Position numbers and translations under genes: made by a program. Under the pieces are notes generated by a model, which saw only the letters and a program-made list of their open reading frames with translations, was not told the origin of the DNA and made no database searches. DNA of 64,000 bases from Rhabdophis nuchalis (Eukaryota; Chordata; Lepidosauria; Squamata; Natricidae): positions 197,257,962-197,321,961 of the forward strand of contig CM077644.1 of NCBI GenBank assembly GCA_039707465.1. The letters run 5' to 3'. Below, piece after piece: positions 14,132-55,304 of this stretch. Each line of letters starts with the position of its first letter. Position 1 is the stretch's first letter.

Positions 14132-14132
<1 letters not shown>
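13892..14132 (-). mobile_element. L2-like LINE copy B, 3' part
   Basis: Contains the 3'UTR ending GGGCGG...ATAAATTGG with a (TTTA)n tail at 13,892-13,925. At its 5' side it encodes the terminal FQQAGL stop on the minus strand. It is separated from the rest of copy B (14,936-15,135) by inserted copy A. Confidence 0.8.
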
Positions 14133-14219
<87 letters not shown>

Positions 14220-21050: not shown

Positions 21051-21899
21051 TTATTTTTTAGATCTAAGTCTCTTGGCAATTGTATCTTCTATCTCTCCTT
21101 CCAGGCCCCCAGCGGGCGGGGCCGTGGCCCCCCCTGCCCCCCCTGGATCTTCCCCCAGGAAAGAGGAATGTGTTTTAAGAAAGGCTTCCGCCTCAGCAAC
21201 TGTTTTAATCCTCACTCTTCCTCCTTCCCAGAACACCAGCATCCCTTCGGGCGTCACCCACCTGAACCAGATCCCGTGGTCAAACAATTTTTTGGACAAG
21301 AAGGAAAATTTCCTTCTTGCTTCTCTAATCTTTCTTGGGATCTGCTTCAGGATGGCAACCTCCTTTTGTTGGTAAATTAACAGACCTCCTCTTTGCACTT
21401 TCAAGATTTCCTCTCTGGTTGACCTTCTAACAAATTTAACATGTATCTCTCTGGGTACTTCATTTATCCTGGCATATGCAGAGTTTATTCTGTAGGCTAG
21501 GTCAATGTCCCCCCTGATCTCATCCTTAGGTTTATGTAAATAGTCTGCTATAATTGTGCTCATGAGTTCAGGGAGACATTCACCAGTTTCCTCAGAAACA
21601 TTCTGAAATCTCAAAAAATATGTCATCCTTTCCATATCAATCCTAGACACATGCCCATTTATTTCCACAACCTCATTAGTAACATTTTTAATCTCTCGCT
21701 TAGCCCCCGCCAGCCCCCCTTCCAGTTCTTCATTCTTCTGTGTGTTCTCCAGCACTTGTTTCCATGTGTCCAATAATTCCTTTTTAAAGTTGATATTTTC
21801 TGCCCTCTGGGCCTTGATTTCTTGTACCAAAGTTTGTATAACAGATTCAAGAGAGGCCATCCTTAGTTCTAAGCTTGCCAGTGCTGATTCTTGTGCCAT
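21051..21899 (-). CDS. L1 ORF1 protein (RNA-binding chaperone), intact
   Basis: 282 codons with no stop. ORF1p forms a trimer that coats LINE RNA in cytoplasmic particles. Residues about 8-85 are charged and heptad-like (ELRMASLESVIQTLV onward), fitting the coiled coil. Residues about 92-165 fit the RRM (YFLRFQNVSEETGE, then REIHVKFV), and about 168-240 the C-terminal domain (VAILKQIPRKIREARRKF, then FRWVTPEGMLV). The tail is Gly/Pro/Ala-rich and basic. This is shorter than human ORF1p (338 aa) because of the coiled coil. The ATG at 21,897-21,899 is the first of the frame. Not a host gene unless domesticated; the intact target duplication argues for a young insertion. Confidence 0.9.
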   Translation of the reverse strand: MAQESALASLELRMASLESVIQTLVQEIKAQRAENINFKKELLDTWKQVLENTQKNEELEGGLAGAKREIKNVTNEVVEINGHVSRIDMERMTYFLRFQNVSEETGECLPELMSTIIADYLHKPKDEIRGDIDLAYRINSAYARINEVPREIHVKFVRRSTREEILKVQRGGLLIYQQKEVAILKQIPRKIREARRKFSFLSKKLFDHGIWFRWVTPEGMLVFWEGGRVRIKTVAEAEAFLKTHSSFLGEDPGGAGGATAPPAGGLEGEIEDTIAKRLRSKK

Positions 21900-22756
21900 G
21901 ATTAGCTGTTAAAATCAGTGCCACTAAAATGGCGTTTTTTGGGTGGAGCTGTTGAGGCAAATCAGGAGCCAAAAGTTCAGTTCAGGGTTGTAAAGTTCAG
22001 GAACCAAGAGAGAAACAATTTCCCAAATCAATAAGTATAATAACGAAGGCACTCCAGAAAAGAAATCACAAATCCAAAAAAAAAATTCTTCTTTAGTAAC
22101 CAGAGGGAGTCCAAATCACAAAGAGATGCTGGAAATTTTCCATAAATAAAATAGTCATTCAGGGACAAAGAGAAGCCATTTTCCGCCGCCCAGACTCAGA
22201 GGCAGGAGGAGAGAGTGGTAAAAAAAATGTTTCAAATCAGCCAGACCTAGATACTTTGTTTCAAAGACAAACCGCAGATCACTTTCCCTTGTTTCAAACA
22301 GTCCAGATTAAAGATATCCGCTTCCTCGCAGCGAGGAGCCATACTTAAGGGCCGCTTTAGTCCGAGGGGGGGTTTAACAAGCAGACACCCCCCTCCAAGT
22401 TCTTTCAGCCCAGGCTGACAGCAGAAAAAAAATGTTTAAAACCACTCACTTTCACCCTCGCAGCCGAAGCCCCGGGAAGCCTTCCGACTCAGACGGCCAG
22501 CTCTCTTCATATTTTCAGAATGATGCCGCCCACCATTGGCGAAGGGGAAACCCCCCGCAGCATGTCCTCCTCCACCTAAGCCGAAGACAAGGGTCGCTTC
22601 CCAACTGCTGCTGGGGGAGGACGACCCAGGCAAGCCGGCTTTACGGGAGACCCCCAAAAACGGGGCGTCTCGCCCCCGTGGGGGGGCAGGAAAAGAAACA
22701 AAGCGGCGAGCGAGTCCTAGGCTCGCCCGTCGCCGCTGGAGCCGGAACCGGAAGTC
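21900..22756 (-). promoter_or_regulatory. L1 5'UTR with CpG-rich internal promoter
   Basis: The first 330 bp (22,756-22,430) are strikingly GC- and CpG-rich against an AT-rich background. The element's 5' end carries an ETS-type ACCGGAAGT site at 22,747-22,755. An internal 5' promoter is usual for full-length L1, and retained CpGs imply little time for methylation decay. Confidence 0.7.
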
Positions 22757-36342: not shown

Positions 36343-36735
36343 TTCGGAGTATAAGATGCACCGGAGTATAAGACGCAGCAAGGTTTTAAAGAGGCAAATT
36401 ACAAAAAAAAGTAGGTAGGTAGATAGAGGGATAGAGAGGAAGAGAAAGAAAGAGAAATACAGTAAGTATGTAGAGAGAGTAGGTAGGTAGGTAGATAAAG
36501 GGATAGAGAGAGAGAAAAATAGAGAGAAATACAGTAGGTAGGTAGGGAGAGAAAGAATGTGTGTAGATAGATAGGTAGGTAGAAGGATAGAGAGAGAAAT
36601 AGAAAGAGAGAGAGAGAAATTCAGTAGGTTAGTAGGGAGAGAGAGTGTGTGTGTAGGTAGGTAGGTAAAGGGGGGAGAGAGAGAAATGCAGTATGTAGGT
36701 AGGTAGAGAGACTGTGTGTGTAGGTAGATAAACAT
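36343..36735. mobile_element. One-ended copy of the TA-flanked TIR element
   Basis: Left terminus TATTTTTCGGAGTATAAG, then GAGTATAAGACGCA and GGTTTTAAAGAGGCAAATTA, matching 41,227-41,290. The rest is a purine-rich (GTAG)/(GATA)/(GA) low-complexity expansion to 36,735. No right terminus. Confidence 0.75.
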
Positions 36736-42281: not shown

Positions 42282-42913
42282 GTGTCCAAGACTCACAAAT
42301 ATGAAGACCATCAGGAGCTGAAAGAAGAGGATAGGCTTAAGATACAGAAGGATCTTGACAAACTTGAACATTGGGCACTATCTAACAAAATGAAATTCAA
42401 TTGTGAAAAAAGTAAGGTTCTACATTTAGGCACCAAAAACGAAATGCACAGGTACAGTATAGGTGGTACCTTGCTCAATAATAGCAACTGTGAGAGGGAT
42501 CTTGAAATCCTAGTGGACAACCATTTCAATATGAGCCAGCAGTGTGCAGCAGGTGCCAAAAGAGCCAACACAGTTCTAGGCTGCATAAACAGAGGGATAG
42601 AATCAAGATCACGTGAAGTGTTAATACCACTTTATAATGCCTTGGTAAGGCCACACTTGGAACACTGCATTCAGTTTTGGTCACCACGATGTAGAAAAGA
42701 TGTGGAGACTCTAGAAAGAGTGCAGAGAAGAGCAACAAAGATGATAAGGGGACTGGAGGCTAAAACATATGAAGAACAGTTGCAGGAACTGGGTATGTCT
42801 AGTTTAATGAAAAGAACTAGAGGAGACATAATAGCAGTCTTCCGATATCTCAGAGGCTGTCACAAAGAACAGGGAGTCAAACTATTCTCCAAAGCACCTG
42901 AGGGGAGAACAAG
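42282..42913 (+). pseudogene. CR1 LINE ORF2 C-terminal part, open frame, before an insertion
   Basis: About 210 codons stay open: RLKIQKDLDKLEHWALSNKM, KSKVLHLG, NNSNCERDLEILVDNHF, LGCINRGIESRS, LIPLYNALVRPHLEHCIQFW, LERVQRRATKMIRGLEAKTY, MKRTRGDIIAVFRYLRGC and KLFSKAPEGRTR. This is the CR1 RT thumb and C-terminal region; the catalytic core is lost by 5' truncation. The frame is cut at 42,913 by an L2-like insertion and continues at 43,341. Confidence 0.88.
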
Positions 42914-43340: not shown

Positions 43341-43574
43341 AGAAGTAATTGGTGGAAATTAATCAAGGAGAGAAACAACTTAGAACTGAGGAGAAATTTC
43401 CTGACAGTTAGAACAATTAACCAGTGGAACAGCTTGCCTCCAGAAGTTGCGAATATTCCAACTCTGGAAGTTTTTAAGAAGATGTTGTATAGCCATTTGT
43501 GTGAAATGGTATAGGGTTTCCTGCCTGGGCAGGGGGTTGGACTAGAAGACCTCCAAGGTCCCTTCCAACTCTGG
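43341..43574 (+). mobile_element. CR1 LINE, C-terminal end and 3'UTR after the insertion
   Basis: The CR1 frame resumes with WWKLIKERNNLELRRNFLTV, QWNSLPPEVANIPTLEVFKK and a stop near 43,512. The 3'UTR GGGTTTCCTGCCTGGGCAGG and CCCTTCCAACTCTGG leads into the tail microsatellite. Confidence 0.88.
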
Positions 43575-43646
43575 TATTGTATTGTATTGTATTGTATTGT
43601 ATTGTATTGTATTGTATTGTATTGTATTGTATTGTATTGTATTGTA
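43575..43646. repeat. (ATTGT)n microsatellite, CR1 tail
   Basis: About 14 perfect ATTGT units are continuous with the CR1 3' end. Snake CR1 elements are known to seed microsatellites. Confidence 0.97.
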
Positions 43647-46885: not shown

Positions 46886-48177
46886 AATACGCAAAAAAAC
46901 CTTATACTTTCCAGCTCAGTCCTTGACTTTTCATGAGAGCTCTTGAAGACAGTTTGATTCCTAAAGAGAAAGAATTATTTCAGTATCCTGGGTGTAATCC
47001 TTGATAGCTCTTCACAATTCTACTGATGAATTATAACACCACTCCCAGAAATTAAAGAGGAAACTCTACCAGAATATAAGCTTTAACGATAAGTGGGATG
47101 CTCCTGAGGGATGCTTCCCTGAGATACACAATAGCTTATAAAACTCAATTATAGCTAAGATGTGTGATTTCACAACTGACAGGATGAAATCCCATCAAAT
47201 CCTAAAGGTATCTTCTATATTAATCTGGGTATCATCCTTAAAAATATTCCTTCAGAAATTATGGTGAGCATCCTGAAATTTCATGACAGTTTCTCTAAAG
47301 TTAAAAGGACATTGTGGCTTACATATGATTTTTTCCACCTGCATGCATCAATGTTATGCAGCACAAATTACACATTGTGCTTGTTGTATACTTTATGACT
47401 ATATTTTATGCTCTTTTCTTTTGTATTATTAGTATACTGATGTGCAGAGAGGGGAAAATTTTCTTCACTCTCTCTGTTTTCTTGCTGAAAAATAAACCCA
47501 GAAAGGTACCATACAGAATGAAATCTTAGCAGAAAGTTTCTACTGCTGCCTGTAAGAGGCTGGAGTGACACCCAGTTAAACAAATAGTGCAGAACTTGCT
47601 TTCTGTCTGGCCTGTGGGTGGCCATAAAACTTAGCAATGTATGCAAATGCTTACATCTGCTTTGCTTTCAGGTCTGTTTTAAATGTGATTCTTTTTAATT
47701 TGCTTGCAAGATATTGAGAGCTTTGGTACCTGGTCCAGTTGCCTTTGATCCAGTTCTTTGGTTTTCCTCAAAGAGAAATGTCTATATATATATCAGAGTG
47801 AATGATGTTTACATGATGTGGTCAAAATGTTCTTTAATCCGTGTTTGACTTTTTAAAGATGAAATAGGAAATATGATTGGTAGCTTTGAGACGTTAAAGA
47901 GTTCACTAGTCAATACAATTTATTTTAGTTCATGTGAATATAGTAGCCCAAGTGGTTTCAGGAAAATCAATATTTTTATTGATATGGCATAATAACTTTA
48001 TTATCTGTATTGATGAGAGAGTCTAGCAGCACTTATTCTCTCTCTCTTCTCCGTATGTCTGACTGACTGTCTATTGCTAGAGCACATATGTAGATCTTTA
48101 TACTGTGCAGCAATTGTGAAACCGCTTGCCTAATATATACAGAAAATCGCTAATGTCAAGGAAATCTTTGTAGGATA
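46886..48177. other. AT-rich sequence, nothing recognised
   Basis: No feature could be supported here. Confidence 0.5.
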
Positions 48178-48206
48178 TTTGTATGTGTATGTGTATGTGT
48201 ACGTAT
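48178..48206. repeat. (GTATGT)n microsatellite at a CR1 tail
   Basis: Three to four GTATGT units next to the CR1 3' terminus. Confidence 0.85.
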
Positions 48207-49072
48207 ATAGAAACAGAAAACAGAATAACAGAGCTGGAAGGGACCTTGGAAGTCTTCTAGTCCAATTCCCTGCTTAGGCAGGAAACTCTACACCACTTCA
48301 TTAGATAAATGGTTATCCAATATCTTCTTAAAAACTTCCAGTGTCGGAGAATTCACAACTTCTGGAGGCAAGTTGTTCCATTGTTCTAACTGTCAGGAAA
48401 GTTCTCCTTAGTTCTATCTTGCTTCTCTCCTTGATTAGTTTCCATATATTGCTTCTTGTCCTGTGCTCAGTTTCTTTGGAGAATACCTTGACTCCCTCTT
48501 CTTTGTGGCAGCCCTTGAGATATTGGAACACTGCTATCATGTCACCCCTAGTCCTTCTTTTCATTAAACTAGACATAGCCAGTTCCTGTAACCGTTCCTC
48601 ATATGTTTTAGCCTCCAGTCCCCTAATCATCTTTGTTGCTCTTCTCTGAACTCTTCTTAGAGTCTTACACACACACACACCTTTTTTAATATCGTGGTGA
48701 CCAAAACTGGATTTAGTATTCCAAGTGTAGCCTTACCAAGGCATTATAAAGTGGTATTAACACTTCACATGATCTTGATTCTATCCCTCTATTTATGCAG
48801 CCTAGAACTGTGTTGACTTTTCTGGCAGCTGCTGCATACTGCTGGCTCATATTTAAATGGTTGTTCACTAGGACTTCAAGATCTCTCTCACAGTTACTAC
48901 TATTGAGCGAGGTACACACCTGTGGCTGTGCATTTTGTTTTTCTTGCCTAAATGTCGAACCTTACTTTTTTCACCATTGAATTTCATTTTGTTAGCTAGC
49001 GCCCAATGTTCAAGTCTGCCAAGATGCATCTGTATCTTAAGCCTATCTTCTGGAGTGTTGGCTATTCCTGCT
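48207..49072 (-). pseudogene. CR1 LINE, 3' part (downstream of an LTR-element insertion)
   Basis: Read on the minus strand from 49,072: AGIANTPEDRLKIQMHLGRL, EHWALANKMKFNGEKSKVRH, NSSNCERDLEVLVNNHLNM, LGCINRGIESRS, LIPLYNALVRLHLEY, VQRRATKMIRGLEAKTYEER, MKRRTRGDMIAVFQYLKGC, then ELRRTFLTVRT and the 3'UTR. A few frameshifts and an (AC)n expansion at 48,665-48,680 break it. The upstream half of the same copy is 52,036-53,095. Confidence 0.9.
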
Positions 49073-49402
49073 TGTTGTAACTTCAAGTAAAGACAGGGTC
49101 CGGAGTCAGGTTTGCTCAGAAACATAGCTTTTATTAGCTAGGCACAGCTTACAGAAGAAGATAGGTTCAGTTAAAGAAATAGGCGGTAGACAGGGGCTCC
49201 CGCGCTTTGACAGCTCTTTATATTTGGAGCTGTCAAAGGGGGAGCCAATCAGGCTGCAGCAAGGGCCAGGCGCGCCTCAGCCAATCAGGCGCGTCTGTCA
49301 GTTGGCTGCCTTGCTACAGCCTGTTGCCAAGGCTCCAAAGGCAGCCTGGAAGACCTGCGGCCGGTCGTAAGTTGAGACCGGTCGCAGGTCGAGGATATAA
49401 CA
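49073..49402 (-). repeat. Left LTR of the inverted gypsy element
   Basis: 330 bp. On the minus strand it runs TGTTATATCC...TTACAACA. TATA-like CTTTATA complement at 49,216-49,222, AATAAA complement at 49,130-49,135. Its U3 and early R (about 240 bp) differ from the right LTR at one position that could be seen; the last 85 bp are clearly diverged. It joins directly to the protease coding sequence with no polypurine tract. Confidence 0.92.
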
Positions 49403-50164
49403 CTGGATAGGGAAACCAATCCAGGCCGATGATGGCCGCCAGGGGATCAGAAACCACCAGAATAGGCAAGGGCCCCTTGAAACCCCCGTACTCCACCCTC
49501 AGGGAAATCTGGCCCAGGGTGGGGATTGACGATCCCTGATAGTCCCGCAAAACCGTGAGTGGGGGGGACAATTTGTCTAAGGAAAGGCCGGGGCGTAGCT
49601 TGGCCAACTGTGCCCGGGAAATGATGGACCGAGACGAGCCAGAGTCCACCTCCATGCGGACCCCCACCCCCTCCAGTTTCACAACTGTCCTGAGCCGCGT
49701 ACGGTCGGGCAGGGCTTCCAGCAGAGAGTTGTCGTCGGTCAAGGCAAAACAGCCGGACGGCTGCGGCTGCTGGCGTCTGCCCCGGCGGCGTTGGGTGGGT
49801 GGGTTGGCCGCAGGCCCTCTACGTTCCTCTCCGGAGCGGCGTTGGGGCTCGGGGGAGGGTTGGTCTTCCGCGGGCGCAGCGGCGCGGCAAGCGGCGGCCA
49901 GGTGTCCCTTTCGGCCGCAGCGGCGGCAGATGGCTTCCTTGAACGGGCAATCGGCCCGAGGGTGCTTTCCCCGGCAGCCCAAGCATCTGTAGGTAGCCGG
50001 CATGGGCGGCTTGCGGCCGGCGGGCCTAATGTAGGCGACCTGGTCGTCCTCGTCGGGGTCCTCGTCCTCCTCAACCAGGCACGCGCGTGCGGGCGGGTGG
50101 CGGTCCAAGTCTCTATCCAGGGCCGAGGACTCGGACATCTCGAATGCCCGAGCCTCGTCCACCG
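49403..50164 (-). pseudogene. Gypsy Gag nucleocapsid and protease segment
   Basis: Open on the minus strand from 50,164 to the LTR. Two CCHC-type knuckles appear in order, CLGCRGKHPRADC and CRRCGRKGHLAAAC, which bind element RNA. An Arg/Pro-rich linker follows, then a retropepsin with VKLEGVGVRMEVDSGSSRSI (catalytic Asp-Ser-Gly, coding near 49,640) and a C-terminal GLDWF flap-side motif. Capsid is missing upstream and RT is missing downstream: the frame runs into the LTR. The segment is open but cannot make a complete polyprotein. Confidence 0.88.
49975..50118. repeat. Left arm of 144-bp perfect inverted repeat
   Basis: Reverse complement of 50,165-50,308 with no difference seen. It encodes the Gag region just before and into the first zinc knuckle on the minus strand. 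The 46-bp spacer (50,119-50,164) continues the Gag frame of this arm, so this arm is the original and the other is the fold-back copy. Confidence 0.95.
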
Positions 50165-50308
50165 GGATAGAGACTTGGACCGCCACCCGCCCGCACGCGC
50201 GTGCCTGGTTGAGGAGGACGAGGACCCCGACGAGGACGACCAGGTCGCCTACATTAGGCCCGCCGGCCGCAAGCCGCCCATGCCGGCTACCTACAGATGC
50301 TTGGGCTG
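50165..50308. repeat. Right arm of 144-bp perfect inverted repeat
   Basis: Plus-strand copy of the same Gag segment, ending in the middle of the first zinc knuckle (Cys-Leu-Gly), where sequence jumps to the integrase. Confidence 0.95.
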
Positions 50309-51508
50309 GGGGGATCGGGTCATCGTTCCCCCCCCCTCCGTCACCAGGTGCTCCGAACGCTCCACGCCGACCACCCCGGCATAGCCCGGATGAAGGCGCT
50401 CGCCCGCAGCTATGTGTGGTGGCCGGGCTTGGATGCGGAGGTAGCTGCCTGGGTCGGGGGTTGTGTCCCTTGTCAAACCACCCGCCCCGCCCTCCGGTCG
50501 CCCCGCCCAGGGAGTGGGACTTGCCCCGGAGCCCTTGGTCCAGGCTCCACATAGACTTCGCAGGCCCCTTCCGGGGCCAAACGTTCCTGGTGGTCGTGGA
50601 CGCCTACTCCCGTTGGGTGGAGGTCATCCTGATGGCTTCCACTACGGCCGAGAGTACGGTCAGGGCCCTGCGCCGCCTTTTTGCGACGCACGGGTTGCCG
50701 GACATCGTGGTGTCCGACAACGGGCCCCAGTTCCAGTCCGCCACCTTCCAGGAGTTCTTGGCCTCGCAAGGGATCCGCCACGCGCCAGTGGCCCCTTATC
50801 ATCCAGCCTCCAATGGTCGGGCTGAACGGGCCGTCCGCTCGGCCAAGGAGGCTCTGGGACGGATGACCAAAGGGGACTGGCCCGCAAGGGTGGCTGCTTA
50901 CCTGCTAGGTCAGCATTCCACACCTTGCCCTGCCACACGGAAAAGCCCTGCCAAGCTCTTGATGGGTCGCCGCCTGCGGACAACCTTGGACAGGCTGCAC
51001 CCGGCTTACAACGATGTGCAGCCTTGCAACCTGGGGGCCCCACCCCCCCGCCTTTTCCAGCCCGGGGACCCTGTGTACGCCCGCCACTATGCAGGGAACA
51101 CTAAGTGGGTTCCGGCCACAGTAACCGAGCTAACGGGTCCCTGCTCTTTCAGGGTCAGCCTCCCGGACGGGTCCGAGTGGCGGCGCCACTTGGATCAGCT
51201 AAGGCGCCGCCTTCCCACACCTGCGGACCCATCGTCGGAACCGCCCTTCCCCGTTGCCCCGGTTGGGCCAGTCAACCCGTTCCCAGAGAAACCGCTCGGG
51301 GCCTTCGCTTCTTCAGGCCCGGCCGAACTGAACGCCGCCTTCCGGCATACACTTCAGAAGCTGTCTCAAGCCGAGGGGGACGCGCGGGCCCTTGCGCCTA
51401 AGGACCCGCCCTGCACCGCCGCAACCAACCGGCATCCAGCATACTATGCCCCCTCGCCCCGACTTACCAGCTCTGACGACTCCGCCTCCGCGGGTAGGCC
51501 TCGATGAC
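50309..51508 (+). pseudogene. Gypsy integrase, frameshifted
   Basis: The N-terminal HHCC zinc domain lies at about 50,340-50,480 (LHADHPGIARMKALARSYVW, then CVPCQ). The catalytic core is in another frame: LHIDFAGPF (first Asp), IVVSDNGPQF (second Asp), YHPASNGRAERAVRSAKEAL (Glu). The C-terminal GPCSFRVSLPDG-like module and a Pro-rich tail follow. All three DDE residues are present. The frame changes between about 50,480 and 50,520, so the copy is broken, and no RT or RNase H precedes it. Integrase would join the cDNA ends to target DNA. Confidence 0.9.
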
Positions 51509-51684
51509 GTCACCACCTGGAGCTCCACTCCCCGAAGGGAGGAGCTCGCACAGGGGCAACCTACCTCTCCGACGTCCCACCAGCAACTGAGGCGGTCTGG
51601 GCGTTCCCGGCGCCGCCCCGCCTACTTTCAAGACTACGCATGCTCGTGCATCAGAACGAACAATTCCTCGAGCATGCGCAGACC

Positions 51685-51699
51685 GAGGGGGGAAAGGGG
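51685..51699 (+). promoter_or_regulatory. Polypurine tract before right LTR
   Basis: GAGGGGGGAAAGGGG sits directly before the LTR TG, the expected plus-strand primer for gypsy reverse transcription. No equivalent is found at the left LTR. Confidence 0.85.
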
Positions 51700-52035
51700 T
51701 GTTATATCCTCGACCTGCGACCGGTCTCGACTTACGACCGGCCGCAGGTCTTCCAGGCTGCCTTTGGAGCCTTGGCAACAGGCTGTAGCAAGGCAGCCAA
51801 CTGACAGACGCGCCTGATTGGCTGAGGCGCGCCTGGCCCTTGCTGCAGCCTGATTGGCTCCCCCTTTGACAGCTCCAAATATAAAGAGCTGTCAAAGCGC
51901 GGGAGCCCCTGTCTACCGCCTATTTCTTTAACTGAACCATTCTTCTATTGTAAGCTTGCCTAAAATAAAGGGCTGTGTTTTTGAGCAAACCTGGCTCGGA
52001 CTCCCTCTATTCTCCTCCGTGCAGAGAATCTAACA
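51700..52035 (+). repeat. Right LTR of the inverted gypsy element
   Basis: 336 bp, TGTTATATCC...GAATCTAACA. CCAAT-type GATTGGCT motifs at about 51,817 and 51,851, TATAAAG at 51,880-51,886, AATAAA at 51,964-51,969. The end after about 51,944 is unlike the left LTR in sequence although it has the same layout. Confidence 0.93.
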
Positions 52036-53092
52036 CTGCTAGCTTGGTGTCATCTGCAAATTTGATGAGTTCCCCATCCATCCCCTTGTCCAAATCATTG
52101 ATGAAGTTGAAGAGTACTGGGCCTAAAACAGAGCGTTGGGGTGCTCCACTGCATACTTCCCTCCATGTAGATACAGTTCCATTGAGGACTATATGTTGAG
52201 TGGGATTGGTCATCCATCTGGTGGTGATACTGTCTAGTCCACATTTTTCTATTTTATCTAGTAGTAGGTTATGGTCTACTTTATTAAATGCTTTACTGAA
52301 GTCCAAATAAATTATATTGACAGCATTCCTTTGGTCCACTAATTTTGTCACTTTGTCAAAGAATACAATAAGATTAGTTTGGCATGATCTGTTTTTGATG
52401 AACTCATGTTGGCTTTTGGTTATTACTAGGTGTTTGCTGACTTGTTGCTTGATTATCTTTTCCAGAATCTTTCCTGGTATTGAGGCCAGTCTGATAGATC
52501 TGTGATTTCCTAGATCTATCCCCCCACCTCCCTTTTCGAAGATGGGAACTACATAAGCTCTTTTCCAGTCCTTTAGTGATCCTGGTGCTCCAGGATCTTT
52601 GAAAGATATAGTTCAGTGGTTCTGAGATCTTGTCTGCCAGTTCCTTCAGAACATTGGGGTGTAATCCATCTGGTCTTGGTGATTTAAACTTGTCTAGGGT
52701 AGGCAGGTGGTCACTTATCATTTTCTTCGCCATTTTAACTTGTGTTCCTAATCTGTTTTTGTGGTGCTGTTTTTGACAGGTTGGACTGCTTTTTTCCCCT
52801 TTGTGTAAAAATAGTTGCAAAAATGAGTTAAACAGTTCTGCTTTCTCCCTGTTGCTTGTCACCTTTTTGCCACATTCTCCCAGCATTGGACCAATTGTTT
52901 TCTTGACCTTTTTCTTGTTTTTTAACATGTTGGAAGAAGCTTTATTTTATTTTATTTTTTACTTTTGTTGCTAGCTTTTCCTTATTGTGAGCCTTAGTTT
53001 TCTTCACTTCTTCTTTGCAGGCTCGGGCTATTTGCTAATATTCTGCCTTAGTTATGTGCCCCTCTTTCCACTTTTTATACTTGTCCTTTTTG

Positions 53093-53095
<3 letters not shown>
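52036..53095 (-). pseudogene. CR1 LINE, 5' part (upstream of the LTR-element insertion)
   Basis: On the minus strand, with frameshifts: HITKAEY and ARACKEEVKKTKAHNKEKLA at the 5' end, [48 protein letters not shown] (first catalytic Asp), [13 protein letters not shown] and [13 protein letters not shown] (FADD). The next residues of the domain continue at 49,072. With the other half this gives about 1.9 kb of CR1, 5'-truncated at the (AC)n repeat. Confidence 0.9.

Positions 53096-53137
<42 letters not shown>
53096..53137. repeat. (AC)n microsatellite
   Basis: About 18 uninterrupted AC units and one GC interruption at the CR1 5' boundary. Confidence 0.97.
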
Positions 53138-53861
53138 TCTATTTTTCATAATGTTGAAATTCTGAATGCAAATACAACATAAAATCTGCTGTCCATATAT
53201 GAAGAGCTAACCTATTTAAATCTACATAGTTTTCTGGCTTAATATGTTCATATAGGGTTATTTTTTTAAAAAAATGGTCTTGACTCCTTCACTTTCCTTG
53301 TTTTGTTTTCTTGACTAAATGTCTATAGAACAGTTTTGCAGCCCTGGAAAGGTTGCTTACTAGTTTATGATGCTTTAGTTGATCTTTGTGAAAAGGAGTG
53401 AACTAGTATGGACTTTGAGTTCTTGTAATGGCTCTGCATATCTTCCAGCCATTTTTGACAGCAGGATTTGACATAAGCTATATTTTTTCCTGATCTCATC
53501 ATAGACTGATCTCATCATAGGCACATGTTTAAATGTCAGTTCGAATGATGTGAGCAAAGGTGGAGAAGAAAGTTAAAAAACTACTATTTCAGTTAACTTG
53601 CCTCAAATAATATCACAGGAACAAGCATTGATTGTGACAGGCAAATATACCGCTCCCAGATGTTTATATTATGGAGAGTAGAAAATGCTTTTAAAAATCA
53701 TTTTACAATATTACTTTCACCAATGTACTCATAAACCTACGTGCAATATGTAGCACTTTAGGCCTTGAAATTTAACCTTGCAAATATGTACTATAGCTTA
53801 AATGGGAGGCAATCTTTCCCTAAAAAGCAGCTTATCCAGAAGCACCTCTTTTCATACATTT
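53138..53861. other. AT-rich sequence, nothing recognised
   Basis: CTGATCTCATCATAG is tandemly duplicated near 53,490-53,520. No gene or repeat was recognised. Confidence 0.5.
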
Positions 53862-53966
53862 TATTTGATTTTAGCTTTGTATGCTGTCTTGTTGTAATTT
53901 GTTTTTTAATTTCCCTGTGCCCCGCCTTGAGTCCCTTTGGGGAGAGAGAGCGGGATATAAATAAAA
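53862..53966 (+). mobile_element. L2-like LINE 3' end
   Basis: CCCTGTGCCCCGCCTTGAGT, CCCTTTGGGGAGAGAGAGC and GGGATATAAATAAAAATTA match the UTR end of the L2-like copies. Only the UTR is left. Confidence 0.75.
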
Positions 53967-54090
<124 letters not shown>

Positions 54091-54861
54091 TATGTATTCA
54101 AATACATGATCCCCCCCCTCATTTGTAAGTGAATCTAGTCTTTCACTGTATTTATACCATCATCTACTCCACTAGATAAAGTGAATGTTGAAGCATGGTC
54201 ATATTGCAAAATTCTGATGGTCCAAATATTTCATTTATATGGGAAGCCTACCTACTGATTGTCCACTTCAGACTTCCTCTCCATGGTATAGAAAATAGTA
54301 AGGATGAGAATTGTATGGAAGAGGCATGATTGAGGTGTTAGCATCAATGATAGCTAACATCAGATAGTTCACTGATGTATTACTAGGTGTGATTCCTTAT
54401 TTCTATTCATAGATTAGATAGCATTAAAATTAGCTACATGCCTGGATATGTTCAGTCTGCTCCATTCAAAGGAAAGAAATATTTGTTAGAATTTTTCTGG
54501 TGACATAATATCATTCCAATAAATTTGGGTAATGACATGTTAAACACTAAGCCTTGTCTTTGAAGAACTATCTACCAGAAAATTGACCATTGATGATAGC
54601 ACAACTGTGCTAACAGGGATAGACATTTTCAAATTGACTTTGGAAACAGAAGCACATAGATACTCATGCTGTAGATATAGGAATATGTACTCTATGTCTC
54701 TGCCTTCTGGCTGTAGCTTCTCTGCAAGTAATAGCTACACACAAAGAGATTATTTTCTAAAATGCATTACTGTACTTTTCTGGTCTTAGGGCTATATTAA
54801 GAGCTTCTCATCTTTATTTAGTCATTGAATTTTGGTTTCTGCTCTAAATGTATTGAAAACC
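54091..54861. other. AT-rich sequence, nothing recognised
   Basis: No feature could be supported here. Confidence 0.5.
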
Positions 54862-55218: not shown

Positions 55219-55220
55219 GT

Positions 55221-55304
<84 letters not shown>
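55219..55304. repeat. (TTTC)n microsatellite
   Basis: About 21 TTTC units, inside the composite element. Confidence 0.97.

Follow-up and report, generated by a model that had tools for sequence, protein, structure and literature searches.

A fragmentary gypsy insertion with inverted LTRs and outward-facing U5 ends in a LINE reverse transcriptase frame

The insert and its target site

The window, i.e., the whole 64-kb stretch of DNA that was analysed, contains at positions 49073-52035 a 2,963-bp insert, which is a fragmentary gypsy element with two inverted LTRs. Along the plus strand, the left half comprises a LINE flank, CTGCT, the left LTR, protease and gag (the last three on the minus strand) and a hairpin centre, and the right half comprises gag, integrase, a polypurine tract, the right LTR (all on the plus strand), CTGCT and again a LINE flank (Table 1). 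This arrangement, with the left LTR on the minus strand, the right LTR on the plus strand and both U5 ends outward, had been claimed in a preliminary description of this DNA, and its coordinates proved exact. Within positions 47500-54000, the inverted pairs are the LTR arms (258 nt, 98%), the gag arms (152 nt, 98%) and a 26-nt R-U5 piece (88%). No third LTR was found within the 64-kb window, in which, besides the two LTRs, there are just short self-matches inside them. The direct-LTR arrangement with whole gag-pol, as in canonical Ty3/gypsy elements, is absent because the LTRs are inverted. In addition, no reverse transcriptase occurs among the domain (Pfam) and protein matches of the insert, and neither 5' gag nor a primer-binding region was seen in it. 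There were no Rfam matches at the gathering score in the insert or in the whole 64-kb window, and a tRNA scan found none.

Table 1. Features of the insert and its flanks (positions in the window)
Feature	Positions	Strand	Basis or remark
Left flank: LINE reverse transcriptase, downstream part of the frame	48868-49072	-	last 5 bases are CTGCT
Target-site duplication CTGCT, left copy	49068-49072		sequence, empty-site test
Left LTR, 330 bp	49073-49402	-	TGTTATATCC...TTACAACA; outward U5 end, 49073; first U3 base, 49402
Left LTR beyond the break: 3' part of predicted R and U5	49073-49163	-	unlike right LTR
Left arm: gag and aspartic protease	49403-50164	-	Pfam, protein comparison; zinc knuckles by eye
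Exact inverted gag block, left copy, 144 nt	49975-50118	-	alignment
Centre: 46-nt imperfect hairpin between the gag blocks	50119-50164		folding, alignment
Exact inverted gag block, right copy, 144 nt	50165-50308	+	alignment
Gag-to-pol junction	50298-50310	+	short motif common to both sides
Integrase: H2C2 zinc domain and DDE core	50336-51222	+	Pfam PF17921, PF00665
Polypurine tract ahead of right LTR	51686-51699	+	sequence
Right LTR, 336 bp	51700-52035	+	TGTTATATCC...ATCTAACA; U5 end outward at 52035
Target-site duplication CTGCT, right copy	52036-52040		sequence, empty-site test
Right flank: LINE reverse transcriptase, upstream part of the frame	52036-52612	-	open frame, RVT_1

The flanking LINE, which we take to be of the CR1 type, preserves the history of the integration. 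When the insert is excised and a single CTGCT is kept, a 258-codon LINE reverse transcriptase frame is open; when the flanks are joined with two copies of CTGCT or without any, the frame is lost. On the joined flanks, PF00078 (RVT_1) covers residues 34-231 (E 3.1e-21) and spans the join. Since the frame is restored by exactly one CTGCT and RVT_1 runs across the join, a single integrase-type insertion is indicated, and the observations agree with one concerted integration event on target strands cut 5 bp apart. A target duplication of 5 bp is usual for the K02A2.6-like group of Ty3/gypsy elements. The duplication exceeds chance expectation: agreement over 5 bp arose in 455 of 200,000 random site pairs drawn in the flanks. 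The exact duplication bracketing the insert, as well as the contention that a later inversion of a normal provirus does not explain the structure, were both part of the preliminary description, and both are upheld by the in-frame empty site with one CTGCT. The same evidence bears on the idea of two independent insertions, or of a normal provirus later rearranged by inversion or gene conversion. Such histories would accommodate the two LTR types described below, but they would also have to produce the same exact duplication on both sides and a one-copy empty site in frame, with every extra event ending exactly at the LTR edges, and we regard them as very improbable.

Inverted LINE fragments, presumably of the CR1 type, lie at 42326-42816 and 48555-49051, about 6 kb apart and 89-93% alike. 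The second copy of the flanking LINE (match 42326-42704) stops short of the insertion point and is thus unusable as an outside empty site. Elsewhere in the window, Pfam matched none of four ORFs. An open frame of 285 codons at 21051-21908 (minus strand), which has no Pfam match, looks like an L1 ORF1-type protein. Long simple-repeat arrays occur at 14132-14219, 53967-54098, 55220-55304, 36408-36667 and 43574-43646 (TAA, ATT, TTCT, GTAGG-rich and GTATT, respectively).

Gene content of the two arms

The arms carry different parts of a gypsy element. In the left arm, the aspartic protease matches PF13650 at 22.6 bits (E 1.8e-4), slightly under the cut-off of 24.3, and its stretch at 49655-49413 shows 47% identity with P0057, a protein of Thamnophis, over residues 1-81 of the latter. 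Nucleocapsid zinc knuckles in the gag of this arm were recognised by eye, with no Pfam zinc-knuckle match. No relatives of the gag-protease were found at E <= 0.001 among 3541 protein candidates or, in a second protein search, at E <= 10 among 2141 candidates. Among viral contigs, 25 and 2 stretches fitted a pattern, none of which was a relative by tblastn. The joint between protease and U3 is exact (49402/49403) and has no polypurine tract, the first U3 base being reached ten bases past the last matched codon of the protease.

In the right arm, both the zinc domain and the core of the integrase are recognised by Pfam (PF17921, 8.7e-14; PF00665, 1.1e-17), and the DDE residues are present in the core. 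A protein search gave at least 582 proteins at E <= 1e-5 among 7994 candidates scored. The best 120 matches listed start with Thamnophis sirtalis and T. elegans, whose K02A2.6-like proteins include the top two at 74% identity (for P0001, over 71% of the query). Most of the entries that come next are from further snakes and lizards, whereas unnamed entries, those of ticks and Trichinella, and others stand lower in the list. This distribution points to a squamate as the host, and probably to a snake. The Thamnophis proteins matched by the integrase and protease arms are either K02A2.6-like or uncharacterised. By sequence comparison, the integrase is closest to the K02A2.6-like gypsy proteins of snakes, among the matches listed. 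In a sequence comparison with solved integrases, that of 3dlr ranked top (E 9.2e-15) among the best 60 of 98 distinct sequences at E <= 0.001. The insert is a rearranged derivative of the K02A2.6-like family of Ty3/gypsy rather than a canonical member. It should be noted that P0019, P0029 and P0062 (from Ixodes, Rhipicephalus and Trichinella) resemble the integrase at 54-55%, compared with 51-57% for several gecko and snake proteins; whether the likeness to the tick and Trichinella proteins reflects horizontal transfer or contamination could be asked.

At the gag-to-pol junction, CLGWGDRVIVP in the window corresponds to CLIWGDRVVIP of P0002 (8 of 11 residues), and gag here reads CLGC. The switch from gag to the integrase linker thus lies within a shared stretch. 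The integrase reading frame shifts twice (near 50330-50336 and 50488-50512), one of the shifts falling at a C run; this reflects either earlier decay of the template or wrong base calls. Because of these two changes, the insert as it stands is unlikely to be a source of integrase activity, and the integrating activity would have come from another copy.

The frame changes also bear on the reliability of the locus. In favour of an assembly or sequencing artefact, such as a fold-back read or a misjoin at about 50.14 kb, both changes could be base errors, and palindromic reads are a known artefact. However, unlike U5 ends, unequal arms and matched duplications that restore a frame are not expected from an artefact, which we consider quite improbable. 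An assembly join at 50.14 kb is itself unlikely because such a join would not yield matching outer duplications.

Two templates and a proposed origin

Counted from the U3 edge, 238 of 239 positions are identical between the two LTRs, whereas beyond this point only 69 of 101 alignment columns agree (Fisher P 1.7e-10 for the contrast in mismatches before and after the break). The parts after the break are still related, since their alignment score is 29 whereas the highest score in 300 shuffles was -2.5, and they appear to be two types of R-U5 from one family. The TATA begins at LTR position 181 in both LTRs and the break lies at 239/240, 58 nt past the T that opens TATA and upstream of AATAAA. 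In promoters of such LTRs, the R start is expected about 25-30 nt past TATA; with R predicted on this assumption, the break falls inside it. R is the site at which minus-strand strong-stop DNA is handed over (first strand transfer). For the Arabidopsis element Onsen, most within-LTR recombination products are reported to be consistent with template switching at the first such step, in R (PMC5668417). As a separate feature of U3, a palindrome with 12-nt arms (CTTTGACAGCTC...GAGCTGTCAAAG) surrounds the TATA box in both LTRs (51864-51897 and 49205-49238).

Judging from these comparisons, at least two templates contributed to the insert, because R-U5 differs, the arms carry different genes and exact sharing within gag is limited to 144 nt. 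This conclusion touches directly on a simpler idea, namely that one cDNA folded back and copied itself in full, which would give inverted arms, outward U5 on both sides and a central hairpin. Self-copying predicts sameness, whereas the R-U5 regions are unlike and the arm genes differ; the identical arms and LTRs expected of a self-copied fold-back cDNA are absent. Complete self-copying is contradicted unless one LTR end and one arm were largely replaced later, and we find it scarcely credible. The preliminary description had proposed that a cDNA with U5 at both ends was integrated. Its view of a single insertion of such a DNA, with a 5-bp duplication, stands, while a simple self fold-back has to be given up in light of the differing arms and R-U5.

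The explanation that we favour, and hold to be probable, is that reverse transcriptase fused, head to head at the gag hairpin, two minus-strand cDNAs that differed in R-U5 type, and that integrase then used the two U5 ends. In a first step, cDNA A would start on a tRNA at one R-U5 type, move within R onto the U3 type common to cDNA B, and continue through protease into gag. Its 3' end would then fold on the gag hairpin, prime itself and copy 144 nt of its own gag. In a third step, synthesis would switch at the gag/pol motif to cDNA B, from which integrase, polypurine tract and LTR would be copied to the U5 end of B. Finally, the duplex with U5 at each end would be integrated with a 5-bp stagger.

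Features of the centre can be read in favour of either fold-back priming or simple joining of ends. At the 3' end of the left cDNA strand, the hairpin (50122-50166) has a folding energy of -11.2 kcal/mol, a stability equalled or exceeded in 70 of 2121 arm windows outside the centre; it is fair but not exceptional, and the 3' end of the strand pairs imperfectly where copying would begin. The minus frame is open through the centre, but it also continues for 429 codons into sequence that is antisense to the right arm, so that its openness is weak support for fold-back. The main alternative is that breaks in the gag of two double-stranded cDNAs were followed by head-to-head end joining, before integrase used both U5 ends. 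This would likewise account for inverted arms of unequal content, for both U5 types and for the single target duplication, and it agrees with the TCGA palindrome at the exact centre (50140-50143), on either side of which the bases align imperfectly; two diverged gag ends would then meet at this palindrome. Given that the 144-nt block lies so near the joint, however, the two breaks would have to coincide in gag to within about 26 nt, whereas a cDNA that folds back and copies its own gag would produce an exact block without two equal templates. Fold-back is favoured mainly because end joining needs two breaks at nearly the same place, and we therefore judge end joining unlikely. Fold-back priming of the kind proposed was not found in the literature searched.

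The joint between protease and U3 calls for a further step. Under the favoured two-cDNA origin, its preferred source is a read-through RNA from a provirus with a putative nested same-sense LTR in protease, with the poly-A located in this putative nested LTR. Such an RNA would account at once for three features, namely the exactness of the protease-U3 joint, the lack of a polypurine tract and the mosaic nature of the LTR. A cDNA from a transcript lacking the polypurine tract could not begin its plus strand normally. In the complete route, a nested read-through RNA without polypurine tract would give rise to cDNA, fold-back in gag and the switch to cDNA B would supply the second strand and the second U5, and integration would take place in the germ line; we advance this whole chain tentatively and would not rate it as likely. 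Alternatively, strong-stop DNA of one type may have annealed to the plus-strand strong-stop of the other type, been extended as far as the U3 edge and from there switched to protease RNA. This would likewise explain the exact U3 edge, the absent polypurine tract and the mosaic R-U5, with no need for a nested locus, but it requires one more jump, a blind one, where a template ends; it is conceivable, although we lean against it. It competes with this one step only, and its probability is counted apart from those of the other alternatives. Autointegration, in which the U3 end attacks its own DNA, was rejected by reasoning only; it predicts circles or an LTR that leads into the primer-binding region, rather than a free U5 end abutting the flank.

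Under the favoured origin, integrase would have joined two like ends. The terminal bases of the LTRs are alike (TGTT opens U3, and AACA closes both U5 ends), so one integrase could presumably read both outer ends. Donors with PFV U5 ends or with ASV U3 ends have been used in assays of full-site integration in vitro (PMC4358916), from which it appears that two like ends can be used by integrase. Integration during infection, according to a review, needs action on both U3 and U5 ends (PMC11054761). This requirement would make a U5-U5 event exceptional and counts against the best explanation. What sets the event apart is the linear DNA that served as substrate, since each of its ends would have been a U5 end.

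The insert among known systems

The insert is most likely a rare, one-off dead-end product without function, which limits its weight. Nonetheless, it is a natural record which suggests that a gypsy integrase can insert DNA in a concerted manner by two U5 ends, and the joints of the insert retain marks of the strand transfers made during a single event of aberrant reverse transcription. Direct-repeat LTR finders are expected to miss inverted-LTR insertions. If the read-through and fold-back route is true, such insertions may constitute a recurrent, overlooked class in such genomes.

Normal Ty3/gypsy elements have direct LTRs and whole gag-pol. Among the nearest known systems, the K02A2.6-like Ty3/gypsy elements of squamates (Thamnophis and others) resemble the insert in integrase (74% identical) and protease (47%). 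The insert differs from a normal gypsy element in its inverted LTRs and in having no reverse transcriptase match, 5' gag or primer-binding region. Inverted LTRs might bring to mind the DIRS elements, which are not known to have a target duplication. A DIRS-type origin was rejected because a DDE integrase and a 5-bp duplication are present in the insert; a Pfam scan of three pieces gave no tyrosine recombinase. DIRS-1 is described as having inverted LTRs, as in the insert, but also a tyrosine recombinase and circular intermediates (PMC5633606), where the insert has a DDE integrase and a target duplication.

Among the literature matches listed (titles and abstract starts, with few subscription papers), there was no clear case of an integrase-type inverted-LTR element within one target duplication. 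A paper on locust gypsy elements mentions an inverted LTR pair, in a passage that gives no joints or target duplication (PMC8786324). The recombinants of Onsen are similar to the insert in that the mosaics in their LTRs are likewise placed mostly at the first template switch in R, as far as that account describes them; inverted LTRs are not mentioned, and the word "inverted" occurs 0 times in the main text (PMC5668417). A parallel in mechanism is provided by the complex LTR insertions of Triticeae, rice and maize, which by Sabot and Schulman's 2007 model arose from two templates during reverse transcription, and in which a flanking 5-bp duplication shows one integration (PMC1950507). In these, a third, internal LTR is common to two direct elements, and the switch took place between R regions. 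The insert shares with them a single target duplication around a product of two templates. However, it has two inverted LTRs and a head-to-head gag joint, and a third internal LTR with near-identical outer LTRs, as in those insertions (PMC1950507), is absent, R-U5 being unlike. With its inverted, head-to-head form, the insert thus departs from these template-switch LTR insertions in the number and the orientation of its LTRs.
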